DNA from: a virus
Direction: 5' to 3' (one strand)
Length of the DNA: 39,772 nt
Virus record (IMG/VR): IMGVR_UViG_3300024520_000190
Coordinates: 1 to 39,772 of that record
Position numbers and translations under genes: made by a program. Shown here in pieces: positions 6,071-32,619 of this stretch (positions are counted from its first letter, which is position 1; each line of letters begins with the position of its first letter). The notes beneath the pieces were generated by a model. The model made no database searches. It saw only the letters and a list, made by a program, of their open reading frames with translations, and had not been told where the DNA came from.

Positions 6071-6237
6071 AATTAACAAACTGTGTGTGGGTCGGCCCAG
6101 AGGGGTACAACTCAAAATTAGGAGTAGTAGTTAAGGCTGGTCAGAGTTTAAGCTTGATAGAGGCCACAGCGGAACATTTTCTGAAGTCTGGTCTGGTTAA
6201 GATCAAGGGCACCAAGCAACCAAAAATAAAGGAGTAA
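6067..6237 (+). CDS. Small hypothetical protein before the tail tube
   Basis: This 56-residue frame begins in an ATGA overlap with the previous gene and ends four bases before the tail tube ATG. The tube gene's ribosome site (AAGGAG) lies at its end. The protein has a compact beta-like N-terminal part (CVWVGPEGYNSKLGVVVKAGQ) and a lysine-rich C-terminus. In position and size it resembles the tiny protein that precedes the tail sheath or tube genes in Mu-like phages, but sequence similarity was not evident. Function unknown. Confidence 0.6.
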   Translation: MKLTNCVWVGPEGYNSKLGVVVKAGQSLSLIEATAEHFLKSGLVKIKGTKQPKIKE

Positions 6238-6240
6238 ATC

Positions 6241-7188
6241 ATGGCAGGATATGGAATGCAAGGGCACGTTATGTTAAACTTGCAAAATAGCTACAACACA
6301 GCGCAGGTAACAAGCTTACAGTCTATCCCTATTTTAGATGAAAGCATCGTTGAAACTATCGAATGGATTGATGAACAAAATATGTACGCGCGTTTTGCAG
6401 CTGGGCAAGCATTCGAGGGCAAACACCTGATAAGGGGAACCATAAACGCAGAGGCTAGCCCGCAGGCAATGGGCTGGTTCGTGGCTGCGTACATGCAAAG
6501 GGACACGCCTGGAAGTGAGCACGTTCACACGTTCACACCTAAGCAAACGGACTTCGACGCGCTGGTTGCAGGCACACCCGCAACTCTTCAGATATATAGA
6601 GACGTTGGCAGCGCAATGCAGTATGCTGACATGGTCTGTGAGACGCTTGACATCAATATCACACAGGGCGAAATAATGAATGTTGCTGCTGGGTTTCTTG
6701 GTGGAGTAAGCACCAGGGTTGCCGCTGCAAGTCCTACGTTTCCAACTGACAAGCCGTTTAACTGGGCGCAGTCGTCTATCAGTATTGACGGAGCAGCTGT
6801 GACGGACCTAATGGACGCTAGTTTGACCATGACTAAGAACCTAGAAGCGGTTTACACGTTGCAGGATTCTAAAGTCCCTAAGAAAATCAAGCGGTCTGAT
6901 TTTGAACGGATTGAATTGTCTGGGACCATGTTGTTTCAATCCCATAGTTATATGCAGGCCTTCGAAGGCGCAGCTGGTCACACTTTCACGGCTAACTTCG
7001 TTGGAGTAGACAGCCCTGACAACATAACTATCGATATTCCACAGCTGAAGTTTTTAACCTATGAGCCTACTATAAACGGTAAGGGGCTAGTAGAGGCGCC
7101 ATTTACAGCGCTCGCAGAGTACGACACGGACAGCGCAACAGCTATCCAGATCGACATCACAAACGTGAGAACTATCTCATATTTTTAA
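6241..7188 (+). CDS. Major tail tube protein (Phage_tube_2-like)
   Basis: This 315-residue protein is the likely building block of the tail tube. It has the features of the second phage-tube family: an N-terminal beta region ending in GTINAEASPQAMGWF (about residues 62-76), a beta-rich middle describing a two-domain tube fold, and a last strand TAIQIDITNVRTISYF. Length fits the family. A strong AAGGAG lies seven bases before the ATG. It is followed 20 bases later by the frameshifted chaperone and then the tape measure, the standard siphovirus order of tube, chaperone, tape measure. It is not the major capsid protein: neither sequence nor position supports that. Confidence 0.85.
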   Translation: MAGYGMQGHVMLNLQNSYNTAQVTSLQSIPILDESIVETIEWIDEQNMYARFAAGQAFEGKHLIRGTINAEASPQAMGWFVAAYMQRDTPGSEHVHTFTPKQTDFDALVAGTPATLQIYRDVGSAMQYADMVCETLDINITQGEIMNVAAGFLGGVSTRVAAASPTFPTDKPFNWAQSSISIDGAAVTDLMDASLTMTKNLEAVYTLQDSKVPKKIKRSDFERIELSGTMLFQSHSYMQAFEGAAGHTFTANFVGVDSPDNITIDIPQLKFLTYEPTINGKGLVEAPFTALAEYDTDSATAIQIDITNVRTISYF

Positions 7189-18592: not shown

Positions 18593-18970
18593 TTATTCGT
18601 ATGAGTTGTCATCTTTATGGACCTCCCGCCCTTTAAGAGGAGGGTTAAAAACGCATATTAGCGTCACATCTGTAATTGACATGAACTCATGGTCGTCATG
18701 TTTATCTAGTACATATGTGACTCCTGGGCCTATCTGGTGTGTTTCTCCCGTCTCCAAATCTTTAAGTATCCCCTGTCCAGAAACACAGTAACAGGACTCT
18801 AGATGTTTTTTATAGCACCAGCGCTGCCAGGTTCCAACGGGCACATATGTATTACATAACGTGTACCCCATCCCGTCAGAAGCTAACAAAATTCTATTAC
18901 TTACAAACCCTCCTCTTGGGCATTTGACCACCCTGTCCTCAGAGAGGTGCCTTATATCTATTATTTTCAT
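18593..18970 (-). CDS. ectC: Ectoine synthase-like cupin (EctC-like)
   Basis: This 125-residue protein is close to EctC, the iron-dependent cupin that closes N-gamma-acetyl-diaminobutyrate into the compatible solute ectoine. Matching blocks include SDGMGYTLCNTYVPVG, KKHLESCYCVSGQG, ETHQIGPGVTYVLDKHDDH and LICVFNPPLKGREVHKDD. The iron ligands of characterised EctC (Glu57, Tyr85, His93 in the Paenibacillus lautus enzyme) correspond to Glu58, Tyr86 and His94 here, so the active site appears intact. Length fits the family. It starts in an ATGA overlap with the PAPS-reductase-like gene and is followed by a short gap. No ectA or ectB is present, so either the host supplies the precursor or the enzyme has another substrate. 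Confidence 0.88.
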   Translation of the reverse strand: MKIIDIRHLSEDRVVKCPRGGFVSNRILLASDGMGYTLCNTYVPVGTWQRWCYKKHLESCYCVSGQGILKDLETGETHQIGPGVTYVLDKHDDHEFMSITDVTLICVFNPPLKGREVHKDDNSYE

Positions 18971-20265
18971 ATTCCTTTATATTTTTGGGTTATTTGTCTT
19001 TGCCTTACTGCCTGTTCCTTCGTCGGAGCGAGGCCCATATATTTGCATGTATGGTCATTCTTCAAAATTGTTAGCGCAAATCTTTTCCACGACGTAACCG
19101 TGCCGTTATTGCAGCTCAGCTCATCGAGATGGTCAGGAACTTTTTTAATAATGACTCTCTTTAATTTTTTGCCGCCATGGGCCGACACTCCATTTATTTT
19201 GATTCTTACATTGAGGGCCTTTAGTTCTTCTATTATTTTATCTGGTAAGCCGCGCCCCACCCTGCCCCAATATTTAAATGATTGGATAAAGCGCAGCTTA
19301 AAATTCTCAGATACTTCTTTTGGAAGGGTGGCGAGTAAAAATTTAGTGAAAGACTTCCAACTATGCCCTTTCGGGAGTTTTATTGACCTGTAATTTAGTT
19401 GCTTCCCGTAGGTAGCTATAAAATTTGCCCCCTGGACCCTGGAACATAGCCTAGCCCAAACGATAGGGTCTATGACCCTATACAGCCCTAAACTAGATTT
19501 AGACTCACTCATGAAAGGCGAAGCTACTCTCATTGAATGAACCGGGACACCGGCCTTATAAAAAACGTCATATAATTTGTTATAGTCCCATCCAAATTTG
19601 GAATTCGCCCTCCAGATATCTTCGGTTCTCCAGTCATAGATAGGGTAACAGTTGTAAACATGGTTGGTGTTTTTCTTTGTCCACATTTGACCTTCAAAAG
19701 TTACTTTGCGCTGGTTAACTATCGCCCTAAATCTGTTCAGGCTCTCAACTGTTCTTATGCCTATTAAACAGGCGCAGGTTTTACCCTGCGCGTACCAATC
19801 GCCGAATTTATCCCAGAATTCGTCATAGCTCATGTTCTCGTAGAAAAAATCCATTTTGTGATTGTTAATATTAACAACATAGTCATCGTTAGGCATTGGC
19901 CGTATCCACCTGCCCTTGTCCGACTCGCCCCAGCATTGCCAATCTACCGCGTACGAGCTGACAGTGCAGGGGAGCGTTATTGGTAAGCAGCACCAATAAA
20001 CATCTAATAGATCGATGTTTGATCTAATAATTGAGTGCATAAACTCAATTGAATATTCGTAGTTAGCTTCATTATCCATTATCATCAAGCCTATCTTTTT
20101 CGTGATAGAATTCCGCCTCATGTAATCAATAAATAGGTTCAGCATTACCCCGCTGTCTTTCCCACCGGAGAAGGAAATATATATCTTATCAAAGTTATCA
20201 AAAATAAATTTTACCCTTTCCTGCGCTGCCTCGTAAACATCTTTATTTTCGCTGTATGTTCTCAC
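18967..20265 (-). CDS. PAPS-reductase-like protein (IbrA type, with DUF3440)
   Basis: A 432-residue PP-loop ATPase. Residues 33-38 are the SGGKDS motif of PAPS reductases and DndC-like enzymes. The C-terminal DUF3440-type region ends in SWKRFALTILKNDHTCKYMG, as in IbrA of E. coli prophages. Several cysteines occur (CWGESD, CACLIG), but the end CGIH motif of assimilatory PAPS reductase is not seen. It begins with GTG at 20263-20265 after AAAGGAG and overlaps the upstream gene by 23 bases. It is the fourth gene of a cassette led by the ParB-like partner; IbrA/IbrB pairs are a known association. Sulfur or nucleotide chemistry and the target are unknown. Confidence 0.85.
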   Translation of the reverse strand: MRTYSENKDVYEAAQERVKFIFDNFDKIYISFSGGKDSGVMLNLFIDYMRRNSITKKIGLMIMDNEANYEYSIEFMHSIIRSNIDLLDVYWCCLPITLPCTVSSYAVDWQCWGESDKGRWIRPMPNDDYVVNINNHKMDFFYENMSYDEFWDKFGDWYAQGKTCACLIGIRTVESLNRFRAIVNQRKVTFEGQMWTKKNTNHVYNCYPIYDWRTEDIWRANSKFGWDYNKLYDVFYKAGVPVHSMRVASPFMSESKSSLGLYRVIDPIVWARLCSRVQGANFIATYGKQLNYRSIKLPKGHSWKSFTKFLLATLPKEVSENFKLRFIQSFKYWGRVGRGLPDKIIEELKALNVRIKINGVSAHGGKKLKRVIIKKVPDHLDELSCNNGTVTSWKRFALTILKNDHTCKYMGLAPTKEQAVRQRQITQKYKGI

Positions 20266-27170: not shown

Positions 27171-27294
27171 AGCGCTGGCGGTCGCAATACACTCTAAGGC
27201 CAATGAGCAACCGCTGGCGTTGAACTTATACTGCCAGTTTGAAATACTGCGCTTTGCAGCTATCAACGCTAGAATTATATTGTACACGCTATGA
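27160..27294 (+). CDS. Small protein between terminase subunits
   Basis: A 44-residue frame starting at 27160 after GACGAGG. It overlaps the end of the small terminase by 11 bases and its TGA overlaps the large terminase ATG (27291-27294). It is mostly hydrophobic (ALAVAIHSK...LNLYCQFEILRFAAINA). Overlaps on both sides suggest it mediates coupled translation of the large subunit. No family recognised. Confidence 0.6.
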   Translation: MALEALAVAIHSKANEQPLALNLYCQFEILRFAAINARIILYTL

Positions 27295-29882
27295 CAGAAG
27301 ATGAAATACTGGCTGTTAAGCAGTCGCCACACGGCTACGCCTGGTATTGCTCTAATAAAGAGTGGAAACCGTACAGCTTTCTTAAGCATATATCTAAGGT
27401 AATTTGGAGAGCACTGGAGGAAGGCGACGGCAGGTTGATCTTTAATGTTCCACCTCAGCATGGGAAATGCTTGTCCGGGGATACGCTTGTACAGCTTTCT
27501 GATGGGGGGATGGTCGCGATAAAAGATATTCAAGAAGGCCAAGAAGTAATGTCGATGGATAACTTCACTCCTTCCACGGACATAGTAATGTCTAAGAAAT
27601 GTACAGGGGTTAAGGGGGTGTCTAAGCTGACAACTTACACAGGTAAAGAGCTAACGTTAACACCTGAGCACAGGCTCCTTACATTTGAAGGGTGGAAGGA
27701 GTCTAAAGACATCACAGGAAAGGACTATATCTGCACACCAGACTATTTACCAGAGGGGACGGCTGATTTTTTAGATGGTAAGTCGGCTGCACTATTGGCT
27801 TATTACCTAGCAGAGGGCACTAAAGTAGGAAACGGGTTATTGATTACAAATGAATCTGATAAGGTGATAAGCGAGTTATATGATATTTGCGCGGATAATG
27901 GTTGGCGCATACATGATTCACGTGGAGACGGGCTTCACTGGGCGATATACCTGCCAAATAAAGGGCATAATAGAAACAAGAAAAAGCCGATACACTTGCT
28001 TAAGGCGCTAACTGGGACGGACTTAACCACCTATAATTTTAGAATGCCTAGAATGGTATGGCTAGCAACTAACAGCGTGGTAAGTGTATTTATAAATAGG
28101 TTTTACGCTTGCGATGGGAACATAAACAGGGCAACAGGGGCTATTGAGCTATGCCTTGCAAACAGAGACTTTATCCGAGATATGCAGTTGCTACTCATGC
28201 GTTTTGGTATACGCTCCAAGGCTAGCTATAAGCCAACTTCATGCAACGGTAAGAAGTTTGACTCGTATATACTGAGGGTTGACGCCAAGACAGATGTTAT
28301 AAAATTCTGTGATGAAATAGGGATATTAGGAAAGGACACTGACCTTTGTAGGGAAAAAGCACTAAGAAGAGGTCCAGAGAACTCTAAAATAAACGCTTTA
28401 CCAGCTAGCTGGAGGGGGTATCTTAAGAATACAGCCAGTTATTTCAGACAGAAGCACAACATAAGGATCGATAAGCCGGGTGTGACGCATAAGACTAAGG
28501 TTCTTAGGTGTGCAGAGATAGAGGGCAACAAGGATCTATTGGACAGGGTAGAGCACGTGTCATGGGACAGGGTAAGGAGAATAGAGGACGTAGGGGAAGC
28601 ACCTACTTATGACATAGAGACAAAGAAACACCATAACTTCATAGCTAATGGCCTGGTTAGCCACAATTCGACGTTTATCAGTAAGTGGCTACCGCTATGG
28701 TACTTGGAGAACAACCCGAAAGGCAAAGTGATCCTAACGACGTATGGAGACGACTACGCGGCATCATGGGGACGGGCAATAAAAACAGAGATAGTAGCAA
28801 ATACAGAGGTTAATATAAACCTGATGCATGATAGCAGGGCCTCCAACAGGTTCAACACTGTACAGGGTGGACAGGTTATCACTGGAGGCACTGGCGGACA
28901 GATAACCGGGAAAGGTGGCGACTTGATAATCATAGACGACCCACACAAAAACCTGGATGAAGTCATTTCGGAGGCCTACCAGCGAAGGTTCAAGGACTGG
29001 TTCAATGGCGTAATATACACCAGGAGACAACCGAAAACTACAATCATCCTTTTGATGACACGCTGGGCTAAAACGGACCTAACTGAGTGGCTTATGACAG
29101 AGCACGCGGACAAATGGCGAGTTGTGGACCTACCAGCGCTGGCGGTTAAAGGAGATAAACTGGGAAGGGAGGAAGGCCAAGCGCTATGTCCAGAGAGGTT
29201 TGACAGAGAGGACTTGCTAAAGACTAAGCAGGCGGTAGGCTCGTTATTTTGGTCAGGTATGTACCAGCAGAGGCCAACTAGTCTAGGGGGGAACATAGTT
29301 AAGCGCGACTGGATAAAGTTGCATAATATGCCAGTGGACGTTATGGAAGACGTTGTAATGTCATGGGATATGTCATTTAAGGATACTACAAAAGGCTCAT
29401 ATGTCTGTGGCCAAGTTTGGGGAAGGATGGGAGCAAAGTTCTATCTACTGGACCAGATCAGAGAGAGAATGGGATTTACAGCCACAAAAACAGCAGTGGT
29501 AGCTATGTGCGCCAAGTGGCCAGAGGCTAGACGCAAGCTGATAGAGGAGAAGGCCAATGGAGCGGCTATCATTGACGCACTCAGAGACAGCATACCAGGG
29601 ATAGTTCCAGTAGTACCGACCGAGTCGAAGCAGGCAAGAATGGCGGCTGTCAGCCCGTACTATGAAGCTGGAAATGTCCACTATGACAGGAACGCGCCCT
29701 GGTTAATGGACCACATAAACGAAATTTGCGATTTCCCGACTGGGAAGTCAGACGACCAAGCAGACACAGAGAGCCAAGCCCTGAGCGAGCTGGTTAAGGG
29801 GGTACGTTACTCTGGCGTTGATGACTTCGAGGGCATTGGCGGGATAGCAGCACAAACTAATAATGAATTTGGGGAGTTATGA
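27291..29882 (+). CDS. Terminase large subunit containing an intein
   Basis: An 863-residue precursor of the packaging ATPase/nuclease. The N-extein ends with the start of the Walker A motif FNVPPQHGK (residues 51-59). A 400-residue intein follows, and the C-extein begins STFIS, so splicing recreates PPQHGKST. The mature protein has 463 residues. The C-extein has Walker B in DLIIIDDPHKN, LLMTRWA, and the nuclease domain with MSWDMSFKDTTKGSYV and SDDQADTESQAL. Without splicing the ATP site is broken. Linked by ATGA to the preceding 44-residue frame and to the next HTH gene. Confidence 0.95.
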   Translation: MTEDEILAVKQSPHGYAWYCSNKEWKPYSFLKHISKVIWRALEEGDGRLIFNVPPQHGKCLSGDTLVQLSDGGMVAIKDIQEGQEVMSMDNFTPSTDIVMSKKCTGVKGVSKLTTYTGKELTLTPEHRLLTFEGWKESKDITGKDYICTPDYLPEGTADFLDGKSAALLAYYLAEGTKVGNGLLITNESDKVISELYDICADNGWRIHDSRGDGLHWAIYLPNKGHNRNKKKPIHLLKALTGTDLTTYNFRMPRMVWLATNSVVSVFINRFYACDGNINRATGAIELCLANRDFIRDMQLLLMRFGIRSKASYKPTSCNGKKFDSYILRVDAKTDVIKFCDEIGILGKDTDLCREKALRRGPENSKINALPASWRGYLKNTASYFRQKHNIRIDKPGVTHKTKVLRCAEIEGNKDLLDRVEHVSWDRVRRIEDVGEAPTYDIETKKHHNFIANGLVSHNSTFISKWLPLWYLENNPKGKVILTTYGDDYAASWGRAIKTEIVANTEVNINLMHDSRASNRFNTVQGGQVITGGTGGQITGKGGDLIIIDDPHKNLDEVISEAYQRRFKDWFNGVIYTRRQPKTTIILLMTRWAKTDLTEWLMTEHADKWRVVDLPALAVKGDKLGREEGQALCPERFDREDLLKTKQAVGSLFWSGMYQQRPTSLGGNIVKRDWIKLHNMPVDVMEDVVMSWDMSFKDTTKGSYVCGQVWGRMGAKFYLLDQIRERMGFTATKTAVVAMCAKWPEARRKLIEEKANGAAIIDALRDSIPGIVPVVPTESKQARMAAVSPYYEAGNVHYDRNAPWLMDHINEICDFPTGKSDDQADTESQALSELVKGVRYSGVDDFEGIGGIAAQTNNEFGEL
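27468..28667 (+). mobile_element. Intein with LAGLIDADG homing endonuclease in the terminase
   Basis: A 400-residue protein intron, residues 60-459 of the precursor. It starts with Cys60 (CLSGDTLVQLSDG, block A), has the block B TPEH near 124-127, LAGLIDADG-type motifs LLAYYLAEG (168-176) and VFINRFYACDG (266-276), and ends with HHNFIANGLVSHN. The first C-extein residue is Ser. The endonuclease would cut intein-free terminase genes to spread it. Confidence 0.95.
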
Positions 29883-31018: not shown

Positions 31019-31332
31019 GCGAAATCACTTTTACAAATGATGATGTCATTGTACACAGAGGGGCAATGAGTGATGAAAAAGATTTAGAGAGCCTGGAAGA
31101 GCAGAGGGAATGGCTCAAAATTCGTAAGCCAGGATCAAGAAAAGCCGTAGAATCTGGATGTACATGCCCAATCCTGGACAACGGCCATGGCAGGGGTGTC
31201 TTTGGTAATCCTGGCGCATACTGGATGACTGAAGGATGCCCAGTACACACTGAAACCGTAGAGGAATCAAAACTCGATCAAGAAATAAACGACATCATAA
31301 AATGGGTAAATAAACAGCCGGAGGAAGAATGA
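31015..31332 (+). CDS. Hypothetical protein with Cys/His cluster
   Basis: A 105-residue acidic protein. The region SGCTCPILDNGHGRGV...YWMTEGCPVH has three cysteines and two histidines in a spacing that could bind zinc or iron. Similar short CxCP...CPxH domains occur in other small phage proteins. The flanks are highly charged. ATGA overlaps on both sides. Confidence 0.6.
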   Translation: MSEITFTNDDVIVHRGAMSDEKDLESLEEQREWLKIRKPGSRKAVESGCTCPILDNGHGRGVFGNPGAYWMTEGCPVHTETVEESKLDQEINDIIKWVNKQPEEE

Positions 31333-31559
31333 AAGATCTATTTCGCACCGCTGGAATGGGTATAATGTTCTCTTTTGGCGTCTTTATAGGGGCTTCAATG
31401 TGTCGGTTCGTTTCGATGCGAACACTAGAGAAGCACAATGAGGATGCCATTAAGCATCAGGACAGAGTAATAGCATTGCTAGAAAGTGAGTCACAGGACA
31501 TGTGCAGGATAGCGAATTGTCTGGAGAATGTGATAGTACAAAAAGCCTGGGGAGTTTAA
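31329..31559 (+). CDS. Small membrane-anchored protein
   Basis: A 76-residue protein with an N-terminal hydrophobic segment (AGMGIMFSFGVFIGASM, residues 8-24) and a charged helical tail with two cysteines. It is coupled to the preceding gene by an ATGA and is followed by a 151-base gap that holds the tRNA-like element. Function unknown. Confidence 0.6.
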   Translation: MKDLFRTAGMGIMFSFGVFIGASMCRFVSMRTLEKHNEDAIKHQDRVIALLESESQDMCRIANCLENVIVQKAWGV

Positions 31560-31565
31560 TAAATT

Positions 31566-31694
31566 GAGTCAGAGGCGGAACGGTAGACGCATGGACTAGC
31601 ATATTGCATGTGGGCACTCATGATCATTGCTAGTTGGAGAGAGGATAAACACATGCCCAGCCCTCAATTCCAGGTTCGATTCCTGGCTGGCTCA
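31566..31694 (+). ncRNA. tRNA-like RNA with enlarged central part
   Basis: Both ends make a convincing tRNA frame. The acceptor stem is 7 bp (GAGTCAG at 31566-31572 with CTGGCTC at 31687-31693, one G-U pair) and the discriminator is A. The D arm is GCG-(10-base loop with GG)-CGC. The T stem is a perfect 5 bp with the loop TTCGATT. CCA is not encoded. The total of 129 nt is far longer than normal. No standard anticodon arm forms. Instead a 7-bp inverted repeat ACTAGCA/TGCTAGT (31595-31601, 31628-31634) and further hairpins fill the middle. It could be an intron-bearing tRNA, a split or decoy tRNA, or a new tRNA-like RNA. Confidence 0.65.
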
Positions 31695-31710
31695 CTAACA
31701 AAAGGATAAA

Positions 31711-32619
31711 ATGACATTCATACCATACCAACACGTAGAGAAATATGGCTCAGATGAAACTGAAGGGATAACCGATGGAGTAGTTTACGCCTTCCCTAAA
31801 ATTGACGGTACTTGCTCAAGCGTATGGATGGACCACAGTAATATACTCCATGCGGCCTCTCGCAAGAGGGAGCTAACTATCCAAAACGATAATGCGGGTT
31901 TCATGGCCTGGGCTCAGCATCACGATGGTATATTGAGGTTACTCAGGGCTAGGAAGAATATTATACTATTCGGTGAATGGTTAGTGCCACATTCGCTCAA
32001 GACTTACCGTGAGGATGCTTGGCGGAAGTTTTATGTGTTTGATGTCTACGATACCAACACAAATAGGTACATGCACTATTACGCATATCAGCCTGTGATG
32101 GAATACCATGGCATTGATTATATAAACCCCCTCTATCGGTTAGAAAGCCCATCTGATGAACAGATATACTATGTCATGAGTAAGAATAACTACCTCATAG
32201 AGGACGGCACGGGGGTTGGCGAGGGTATTGTACTAAAGAATTACAGCTATAATAACAAATACGGCAGGAGAACCTGGGCTAAGGTGATCACTAACGAGTT
32301 CAAAGCTAAGCACATTAAAGAGATGGGGCCGCCAGTAATAAAGGGCGAGACTCTCGTAGAGGATAAAATAGTTGAGTTGTTCTGCACTCCATCTTTCATT
32401 GAGAAAGAATATTCCAAGATCAAATTGGAATTATCCAATAATAATGAACCCTGGACATCTAGGCAGATCCCTAAATTATTGGGCGTAGTCTGGCATGAGC
32501 TAATAAATGAGCAAGCATGGAACATGGTTAAGAAACTAAAAAACCCGGTTATCGACTACAAAGTTTTAATTAGAAAGGTAACTATTAAAATCAAACAAAC
32601 ATTACCAGAGGTATTTTGA
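31711..32619 (+). CDS. RNA ligase (PF09414-type)
   Basis: A 302-residue ATP-dependent RNA ligase. Motif I is Lys30 in PKIDGT, motif III has Glu89 in ILFGEWL, motif IIIa is KFYVFDVYD (106-114), motif IV is EGIVLK (171-176) and motif V WAKV (189-192). The C-terminal 100 residues are an unassigned helical domain. Family members repair nicked RNA such as tRNAs cut by host defence nucleases. It starts 17 bases after the tRNA-like element, following the ACAAAAGGATAAAATG leader, which makes a functional link plausible. Confidence 0.9.
   Translation: MTFIPYQHVEKYGSDETEGITDGVVYAFPKIDGTCSSVWMDHSNILHAASRKRELTIQNDNAGFMAWAQHHDGILRLLRARKNIILFGEWLVPHSLKTYREDAWRKFYVFDVYDTNTNRYMHYYAYQPVMEYHGIDYINPLYRLESPSDEQIYYVMSKNNYLIEDGTGVGEGIVLKNYSYNNKYGRRTWAKVITNEFKAKHIKEMGPPVIKGETLVEDKIVELFCTPSFIEKEYSKIKLELSNNNEPWTSRQIPKLLGVVWHELINEQAWNMVKKLKNPVIDYKVLIRKVTIKIKQTLPEVF

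Follow-up and report, generated by a model that had tools for sequence, protein, structure and literature searches.

A tRNA(Leu)-like phage RNA with a folded centre in place of the anticodon arm, and the apparently undescribed family to which it belongs

What purpose might be served in a phage by an RNA that keeps the acceptor, D and T arms of a tRNA but carries something else where the anticodon arm should be? The question is raised by a 129-nt stretch of a viral DNA fragment of 39,772 nucleotides (IMG/VR record IMGVR_UViG_3300024520_000190; the whole fragment is referred to here as the window). An earlier, sequence-only reading had noticed nearly perfect acceptor, D and T arms around an over-long centre, followed directly by an RNA ligase gene, and had proposed that the two might be a substrate and its repair enzyme, an intron-containing tRNA in need of ligation, or a decoy that absorbs anticodon nucleases.

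The window RNA and the fold of its centre

The locus is composed of the following elements:

31329-31559 (+): upstream ORF, 76 aa, no family; its stop lies six bases 5' of the RNA
31566-31694 (+): tRNA(Leu)-like RNA without an anticodon arm, 129 nt, CCA not encoded (from the sequence, Rfam RF00005 and about 225 phage elements of the same architecture)
31566-31572 (+): acceptor stem, 5' strand GAGTCAG; 7/7 pairs with the 3' strand, one of them G-U
31573-31574 (+): positions 8-9, AG, with A at position 8
31575-31590 (+): D arm GCG-GAACGGTAGA-CGC; stem 31575-31577/31588-31590 (3/3 pairs), loop GAACGGTAGA; A14, A15, G18G19 and A20a of the tRNA-Leu type (identity elements according to PMC9976931)
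31591-31669 (+): 79-nt centre, standing where a tRNA has its anticodon arm and variable region; its final base is U48, the Levitt partner of A15
31591-31593 (+): predicted helix a, 5' strand ATG; 3 bp with CAT, the weakest of the three helices
31594-31601 (+): predicted helix b, 5' strand GACTAGCA; 8 bp
31607-31609 (+): predicted helix a, 3' strand CAT (from the interlocked-fold computation)
31611-31616 (+): predicted helix c, 5' strand TGGGCA, within the loop of helix b
31628-31635 (+): predicted helix b, 3' strand TGCTAGTT
31654-31659 (+): predicted helix c, 3' strand TGCCCA, which completes the interlocked order a b a' c b' c'
31670-31686 (+): T arm CCAGG-TTCGATT-CCTGG; stem 5/5
31687-31694 (+): acceptor 3' strand CTGGCTC (31687-31693) and discriminator A73 (31694)
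31711-32619 (+): RNA ligase, 302 aa, PF09414 (E 1.7e-19) / phrog_548 (E 1.4e-41), KxDG motif (KIDG)

The tRNA-like RNA with its near-perfect arms was confirmed element by element. It occupies the gap between the upstream ORF and the ligase gene, whose ATG indeed lies 17 nt past the last base of the RNA. A 7-bp acceptor, a D arm and a T arm stand at canonical spacing, and the bacterial tRNA-Leu identity set, i.e. A73, A15-U48, G18G19, A20a, U54-A58 and the D/T loop contacts, can be read from the window. The U8-A14 pair of tRNA-Leu is missing, position 8 being an A, while U8 is found in 224 of 225 family members (see below). A covariance-model search, which had been proposed as a check, bore out the assignment: the Rfam tRNA model RF00005 aligned to exactly 31566-31694 with 31.0 bits (cut-off 29 bits; E 0.00019 in a 701-nt search) and treated the centre as a single large insertion. 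The same match was lost when the whole window was searched with the fast filters of Rfam, and ARAGORN reported neither a tRNA nor a tmRNA in the window.

The suspicion that the over-long centre lacks an anticodon arm was also correct. Read directly from the sequence, the 79-nt centre contains no complement to positions 26-30, 27-31 or 28-32, therefore a 5-bp anticodon stem anchored at positions 26-28 cannot form. The inverted repeat noticed earlier in the centre is present, with a length of 8 bp rather than 7 bp, and constitutes helix b. Together with helices a and c it yields an interlocked arrangement that was matched by none of 300 dinucleotide shuffles, a somewhat generous and mildly circular figure, as the repeats had been noticed before the topology a-b-a'-c-b'-c' was defined. 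The best two-helix pseudoknot (helices b and c) gave a shuffle p of 0.012. Helix c can also be drawn in an alternative, overlapping register, in which GCATGTG (31606-31612) pairs with CACATGC (31650-31656). The nested minimum-free-energy fold is not unusual in comparison with shuffles (z = -0.79), so that plain stability is no argument here and the case depends on the frame and on the crossing helices. Taken together, an interlocked fold of the window centre is likely.

Two other features of the window may be mentioned here. The large terminase subunit (27291-29882) is split by an intein with a LAGLIDADG domain, and a gene on the reverse strand in the phage replication region (18967-20265) combines a PAPS-reductase domain with DUF3440.

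A family with a constant frame and exchangeable centres

The search for relatives used a pattern consisting only of a leucine-type D arm and a T loop, placed too far apart for a normal tRNA; the acceptor and the T stem were left free. This first pattern matched at least 120 loci in viral contigs, as did a variant with a shorter D loop (again at least 120 loci), and a pattern for one particular acceptor matched 71. Among the matches listed, 82 of the first 104 had both the 7-bp acceptor and the 5-bp T stem perfect. The approximately 225 elements gathered from the matches listed bear 77 different acceptors, all of them fully paired, and each position of the stem shows four to six types of pair. 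In addition to the almost invariant U8 (224/225), A73 was found in 158 of 196 elements and the last base of the centre, U48, is a U in 170 of 183. The window RNA has all of the defining features of this family (leucine-type D arm, T arm, paired acceptor, A73, U48 and a centre of 55-100 nt).

In 257 Gb of bacterial genomes the same pattern gave 53 matches, of which only about ten are family members, including one of Leeuwenhoekiella marinoflava DSM 3653 (L168) scoring 37.9 bits with the tRNA model. Most of the 53 were discarded as ordinary tandem tRNA-Leu genes or masked/duplicated sequence. A similarity search of the named phages in INPHARED revealed no family member, and one search matched only pieces of ordinary tRNAs. 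The polymerase of the window virus is at most 40% and its portal about 30% identical to those of named phages. A large phage family exists; the window element, for which no close relative with its acceptor and D arm was found, is a singleton. We conclude that the window RNA is a member of a large, apparently undescribed family in viruses of bacteria.

Using a general finder, we observed contigs with several elements that share the acceptor AGTCAGG/CCTGACT and the T arm ACAGG-TTCGAAT-CCTGT, whereas their centres are wholly different and range from 20 to 250 nt. The 3' part of this frame is present in all 31 whole contigs tested, in up to 12 copies per contig and always on one strand; a reversed-pattern control gave no match in these contigs. 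Arrays of tRNA-like elements occupy long stretches between genes, and the elements of one contig carry different centres. The possession of several copies per genome is a trait of many, not all, members; the 39.8-kb window, a fragment that is possibly incomplete, has one element, and contains no copy of the AGTCAGG-type acceptor. This acceptor recurs across very many centres and phages, and some of its elements have non-leucine D arms.

The diversity of the centres is considerable, as those of 310 distinct elements fall into 246 sequence clusters, 213 of which are singletons. In several clusters one centre is found on different acceptors. Since unrelated centres occur on one frame and one centre occurs on different acceptors, frame and centre are separable modules.

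Several arrays and centres showed individual peculiarities. The centre of one reverse-strand element (locus L192, approximately 6122-6245) resembles a miniature tRNA with a nested acceptor, D arm and T arm, without an anticodon arm, inside the outer frame, and another centre (L029) also contains an internal T arm. In Prochloron and Nostoc contigs with tRNA arrays (L140, 3504-4250; L161, 2501-5700; L147, 5389-5900), the tRNA centres carry a conserved hairpin of about 45 nt (TCCTTATTCATTCCTTGCC...GGCCGAAGAATGAGGATTATCG) beside different anticodon regions, which looks like a repeated element inserted in tRNAs. The Rfam freshwater-1 RNA was found at positions 514-576 of a 104,701-base viral contig (L427; 72.3 bits, cut-off 72), inside an array of tRNAs and tRNA-like elements, and this orphan motif is therefore phage-borne, at least there.

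The centres bear signs of selection for structure. In 37.1% of 151 unrelated centres, compared with 6.7% in shuffles, there is a helix of 6 bp or more with exactly 2 nt between the end of its 3' strand and the T stem, a rule that the window element does not follow, its helix c ending about 10 nt before the T stem. The crossing-helix energy of 187 centres is better than that of shuffles (p 5e-14). In three unrelated subfamilies the interlocked helices are upheld by compensatory changes: in one, three of eight pairs differ by double changes between two sequences; in another, three of 18 pairs do so; and in the third, two of 14 pairs are compensated. Sliding controls gave none in these subfamilies. 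Interlocking is established in the three subfamilies. In 92 centres that already have the fixed helix, an extra crossing helix was not significant (p 0.08), therefore interlocking is not proven family-wide. Motif enrichment over the family centres clearly favoured only tRNA-like ends and internal T-loop hairpins, with no conserved motif or ribozyme core. An antisense or guide role was considered and dismissed, as the longest antisense match of a centre to its own contig is 9.42 nt versus 9.48 nt in shuffles. Structurally, this is very probably a phage RNA that has the frame of a tRNA but does not decode, and that carries a compact folded domain with interlocked helices where the anticodon arm would be.

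The possible function and its alternatives

An RNA that is unable to decode must serve another purpose. Based on our observations, we suggest, with a probability of roughly 0.4, that the tRNA frame provides scaffolding and stability and that the folded centre is the working part, which blocks a host factor. A scaffold that displays domains for the binding of targets would agree with the modular design and with the presence of several unlike centres in one genome. The course of events can be sketched tentatively as follows. The transcript would be excised from phage mRNA by the host tRNA enzymes, i.e. by RNase P, 3' processing and CCA addition, and the RNA, possibly leucylated, would accumulate in a stable form. 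Its folded centre would bind some host factor as a ligand and block it, the most plausible candidates being part of an anti-phage defence or some other enzyme of the host, and the differences between centres, both among phages and among elements of one phage, would reflect different targets. Leucylation is conceivable because the requirements of leucyl-tRNA synthetase are A73 and the D/T elbow, not the anticodon arm. In E. coli, leucine identity resides in A73, A15-U48, G18G19, A20a and the D/T contacts, and a minimal tRNALeu without the anticodon and variable arms is still active, i.e. the anticodon arm is dispensable for charging (PMC9976931). Judging by its sequence, the window RNA could be chargeable with leucine, and its A8 may weaken the charging.

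The neighbourhood of two elements provides a hint at the class of targets, to be regarded as a lead and not as proof, as it concerns two loci and was found after the fact. In a prophage-like contig weakly similar to Paenibacillus phages (L046, 3978-4574), Tad2-like (PF11195) and Acb2/Tad1-like (PF24729) genes and a terminator precede a tRNA-like RNA, and in another contig (L221, 6559-6841, reverse strand) a Tad2-like gene lies 355 nt from an AGTCAGG-type RNA. No further Tad2 relatives were found in the flanking sequences, which amount to 1.83 Mb. When 99 near and 99 far small ORFs were scanned with Pfam, the near set contained two anti-defence genes, both from L046, and the far set none. Within 4 kb of the family elements, no conserved neighbour gene or protein was detected.

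The alternative most directly suggested by the window is that RNA and ligase form a couple, in which the enzyme repairs, circularises or closes the RNA, or reseals it after it has served as a sink for anticodon nucleases. It draws on the 17-nt spacing, on the L151 locus, where a ligase 48-49% identical to that of the window lies about 220 nt from a tRNA-like RNA, and on a relative of the ligase (L352, 2501-3385) that begins 122 nt after three ordinary tRNA genes (2150-2379). The enzyme itself has the catalytic signature of its class, K30, D32 and G33 being invariant in eight relatives. However, none of 80 ligase relatives in viral contigs (45-53% identical) adjoins such an RNA, which is the very situation that the sequence-only reading had named as adverse to its proposal. 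Conversely, 205 of 206 other loci with tRNA-like RNAs lack this ligase, the exception being L151, where the acceptor is irregular; PF09414 ligases of any kind are present in six of 39 other whole contigs. A couple as a rule is not borne out by the counts, and the decoy for anticodon nucleases has against it that the RNA offers no anticodon loop to cut. We regard the couple as very unlikely and the ligase as probably a chance or lineage-specific neighbour and not a partner, with a small chance, on the strength of L151, of a lineage-specific link. A distant relative of the ligase (31% identical) is found in L130 (MW202692.1, 4318-6817) in a row with a putative nucleotidyltransferase and a polynucleotide kinase, likely an RNA-repair cassette. 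It is extremely unlikely that the RNA is a cis-acting leader of the ligase mRNA, with RNase P cleaving the tRNA-shaped part and thereby trimming or regulating the message that follows: the RNA does occupy the gap directly 5' of the ribosome-binding region of the ligase, but the family has no conserved downstream gene and its arrays lie in long intergenic stretches. As for a tRNA interrupted in or near the anticodon and spliced to a normal tRNA, the extra length is in the right place and a phage RNA ligase adjoins. Nevertheless, an anchored anticodon stem cannot form in the window centre; of 151 unrelated family centres, 24.5% have a stem that starts from position 27, versus 21.2% of shuffled ones, and few (4.6%, versus 2.1% in shuffles) possess an intact 5+7 anticodon arm; neither a group I or other intron match in Rfam nor a shared splice-site motif was found. 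A split anticodon stem is expected to be near-universal in intron-bearing tRNAs and here is near chance, therefore the intron explanation is rejected, with next to no probability left to it. A group I intron in tRNA-Leu was likewise discarded, as Rfam gave no intron match and a 79-nt centre is far too short.

Other alternatives concern the family as a whole. That the elements are decayed or inflated, functionless tRNA pseudogenes might be supposed from their weak tRNA scores (31-43 bits in Rfam) and the mostly unrelated centres; this is hardly probable, as the acceptor, the T stem and the tertiary positions have been preserved, with covariation across 77 types of acceptor, and the helix in a fixed place before the T stem and the compensated changes in the centres show selection. 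A charged, tmRNA-like helper without a messenger part, handing over its leucine either to a ribosome that has stalled or to an aminoacyl-transferase acting outside the ribosome, would have the same layout as tmRNA and would make use of A73, U48, G18G19 and A20a, all of which are present. We consider it improbable: there is no tag reading frame, neither ARAGORN nor Rfam gave a tmRNA match, the G3-U70 alanine pair is missing (the window pair 3-70 is G-C), no conserved transferase or partner gene lies nearby, and hypervariable centres in many copies per genome are a misfit for one shared mechanism. Finally, the active part may be the constant frame, which would compete with the tRNAs of the host for one of the enzymes that bind them (leucyl-tRNA synthetase, EF-Tu, RNase P or a defence nuclease that cuts tRNAs), the centre being a plug against decoding and cleavage. 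The frame features are indeed the most conserved, with the AGTCAGG acceptor on very many centres and phages, and leucylation has no need for the anticodon arm (PMC9976931). On the other hand, compensated interlocked helices and conservation within subfamilies would be unneeded in a mere plug, and the 77 freely varying acceptor types and the non-leucine D arms on some AGTCAGG elements indicate that no single identity is kept. Such a decoy by the frame seems rather unlikely.

Returning to the scaffold with a blocking centre, a wider form of it would be that phages use the tRNA fold as a natural cassette, in which one constant frame can be fitted with an unlimited range of unrelated, knotted RNA domains; a genome would have several of them, and each would serve as an RNA inhibitor or decoy against a particular host defence or enzyme. 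This generalisation is possible and somewhat speculative. If true, it would be an RNA equivalent of the small anti-defence proteins whose genes adjoin two of the elements.

Comparison with known systems

The usual explanations for tRNA genes in phages are codon usage and evasion of defences that cut tRNAs. The existence of a large non-decoding family that keeps the tRNA frame implies that phages use the tRNA fold for something else, too. The family is concealed by annotation, as the general tRNA model reports low-scoring tRNAs (in Rfam 15 its elements are recognised only as weak tRNAs) and ARAGORN mostly nothing or an undetermined tRNA. Our search of the PMC open-access literature, with preprints and subscription journals outside its scope, found no description of this RNA type, and we know of no parallel for an exchangeable centre combined with arrays. 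A constant frame with an exchangeable centre also amounts to a ready list of candidate natural RNA inhibitors.

With class II tRNA-Leu the window RNA has in common the acceptor, leucine-type D loop, T arm, A73, A15-U48, G18G19 and A20a; it differs by the lack of the anticodon arm, the 79-nt folded centre and A8. The family RNAs resemble tmRNA in having tRNA-like ends and pseudoknots that replace the anticodon arm. In contrast to tmRNA, they possess a D stem, have no tag frame and no G3-U70, are about one third of its size and occur in many different copies per phage. The likeness to bacterial Y RNA (YrlA) consists in tRNA mimicry by a small non-decoding RNA; the Rfam YrlA model (RF02553) matched neither the window nor the family elements and gave weak overlaps (26 bits versus a cut-off of 69) on ordinary tRNAs. 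The same design as in the family is found in the engineered tRNA scaffold used in laboratories, where an aptamer replaces the anticodon arm and is carried on the acceptor, D and T arms, a comparison which tells us only that an RNA of this build can fold and remain stable in cells.

Among phage RNAs, the comparison leads to bacteriophage T4, which encodes two stable RNAs, rnaC (species 1) and rnaD, of 139 and 119 nt, in its tRNA cluster (PMC9697503). No tRNA model exceeded its cut-off on rnaC, the best being tRNA-Sec with 17.5 bits versus 47. RnaC (L223, 909-1047, reverse strand) ends with a perfect T arm, CCGGG-TTCGAAT-CCCGG. It has no recognisable D arm or full 7-bp acceptor, and what was observed in common is a T arm only. 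The family described here may bear on the old question of the function of the T4 stable RNAs C and D.
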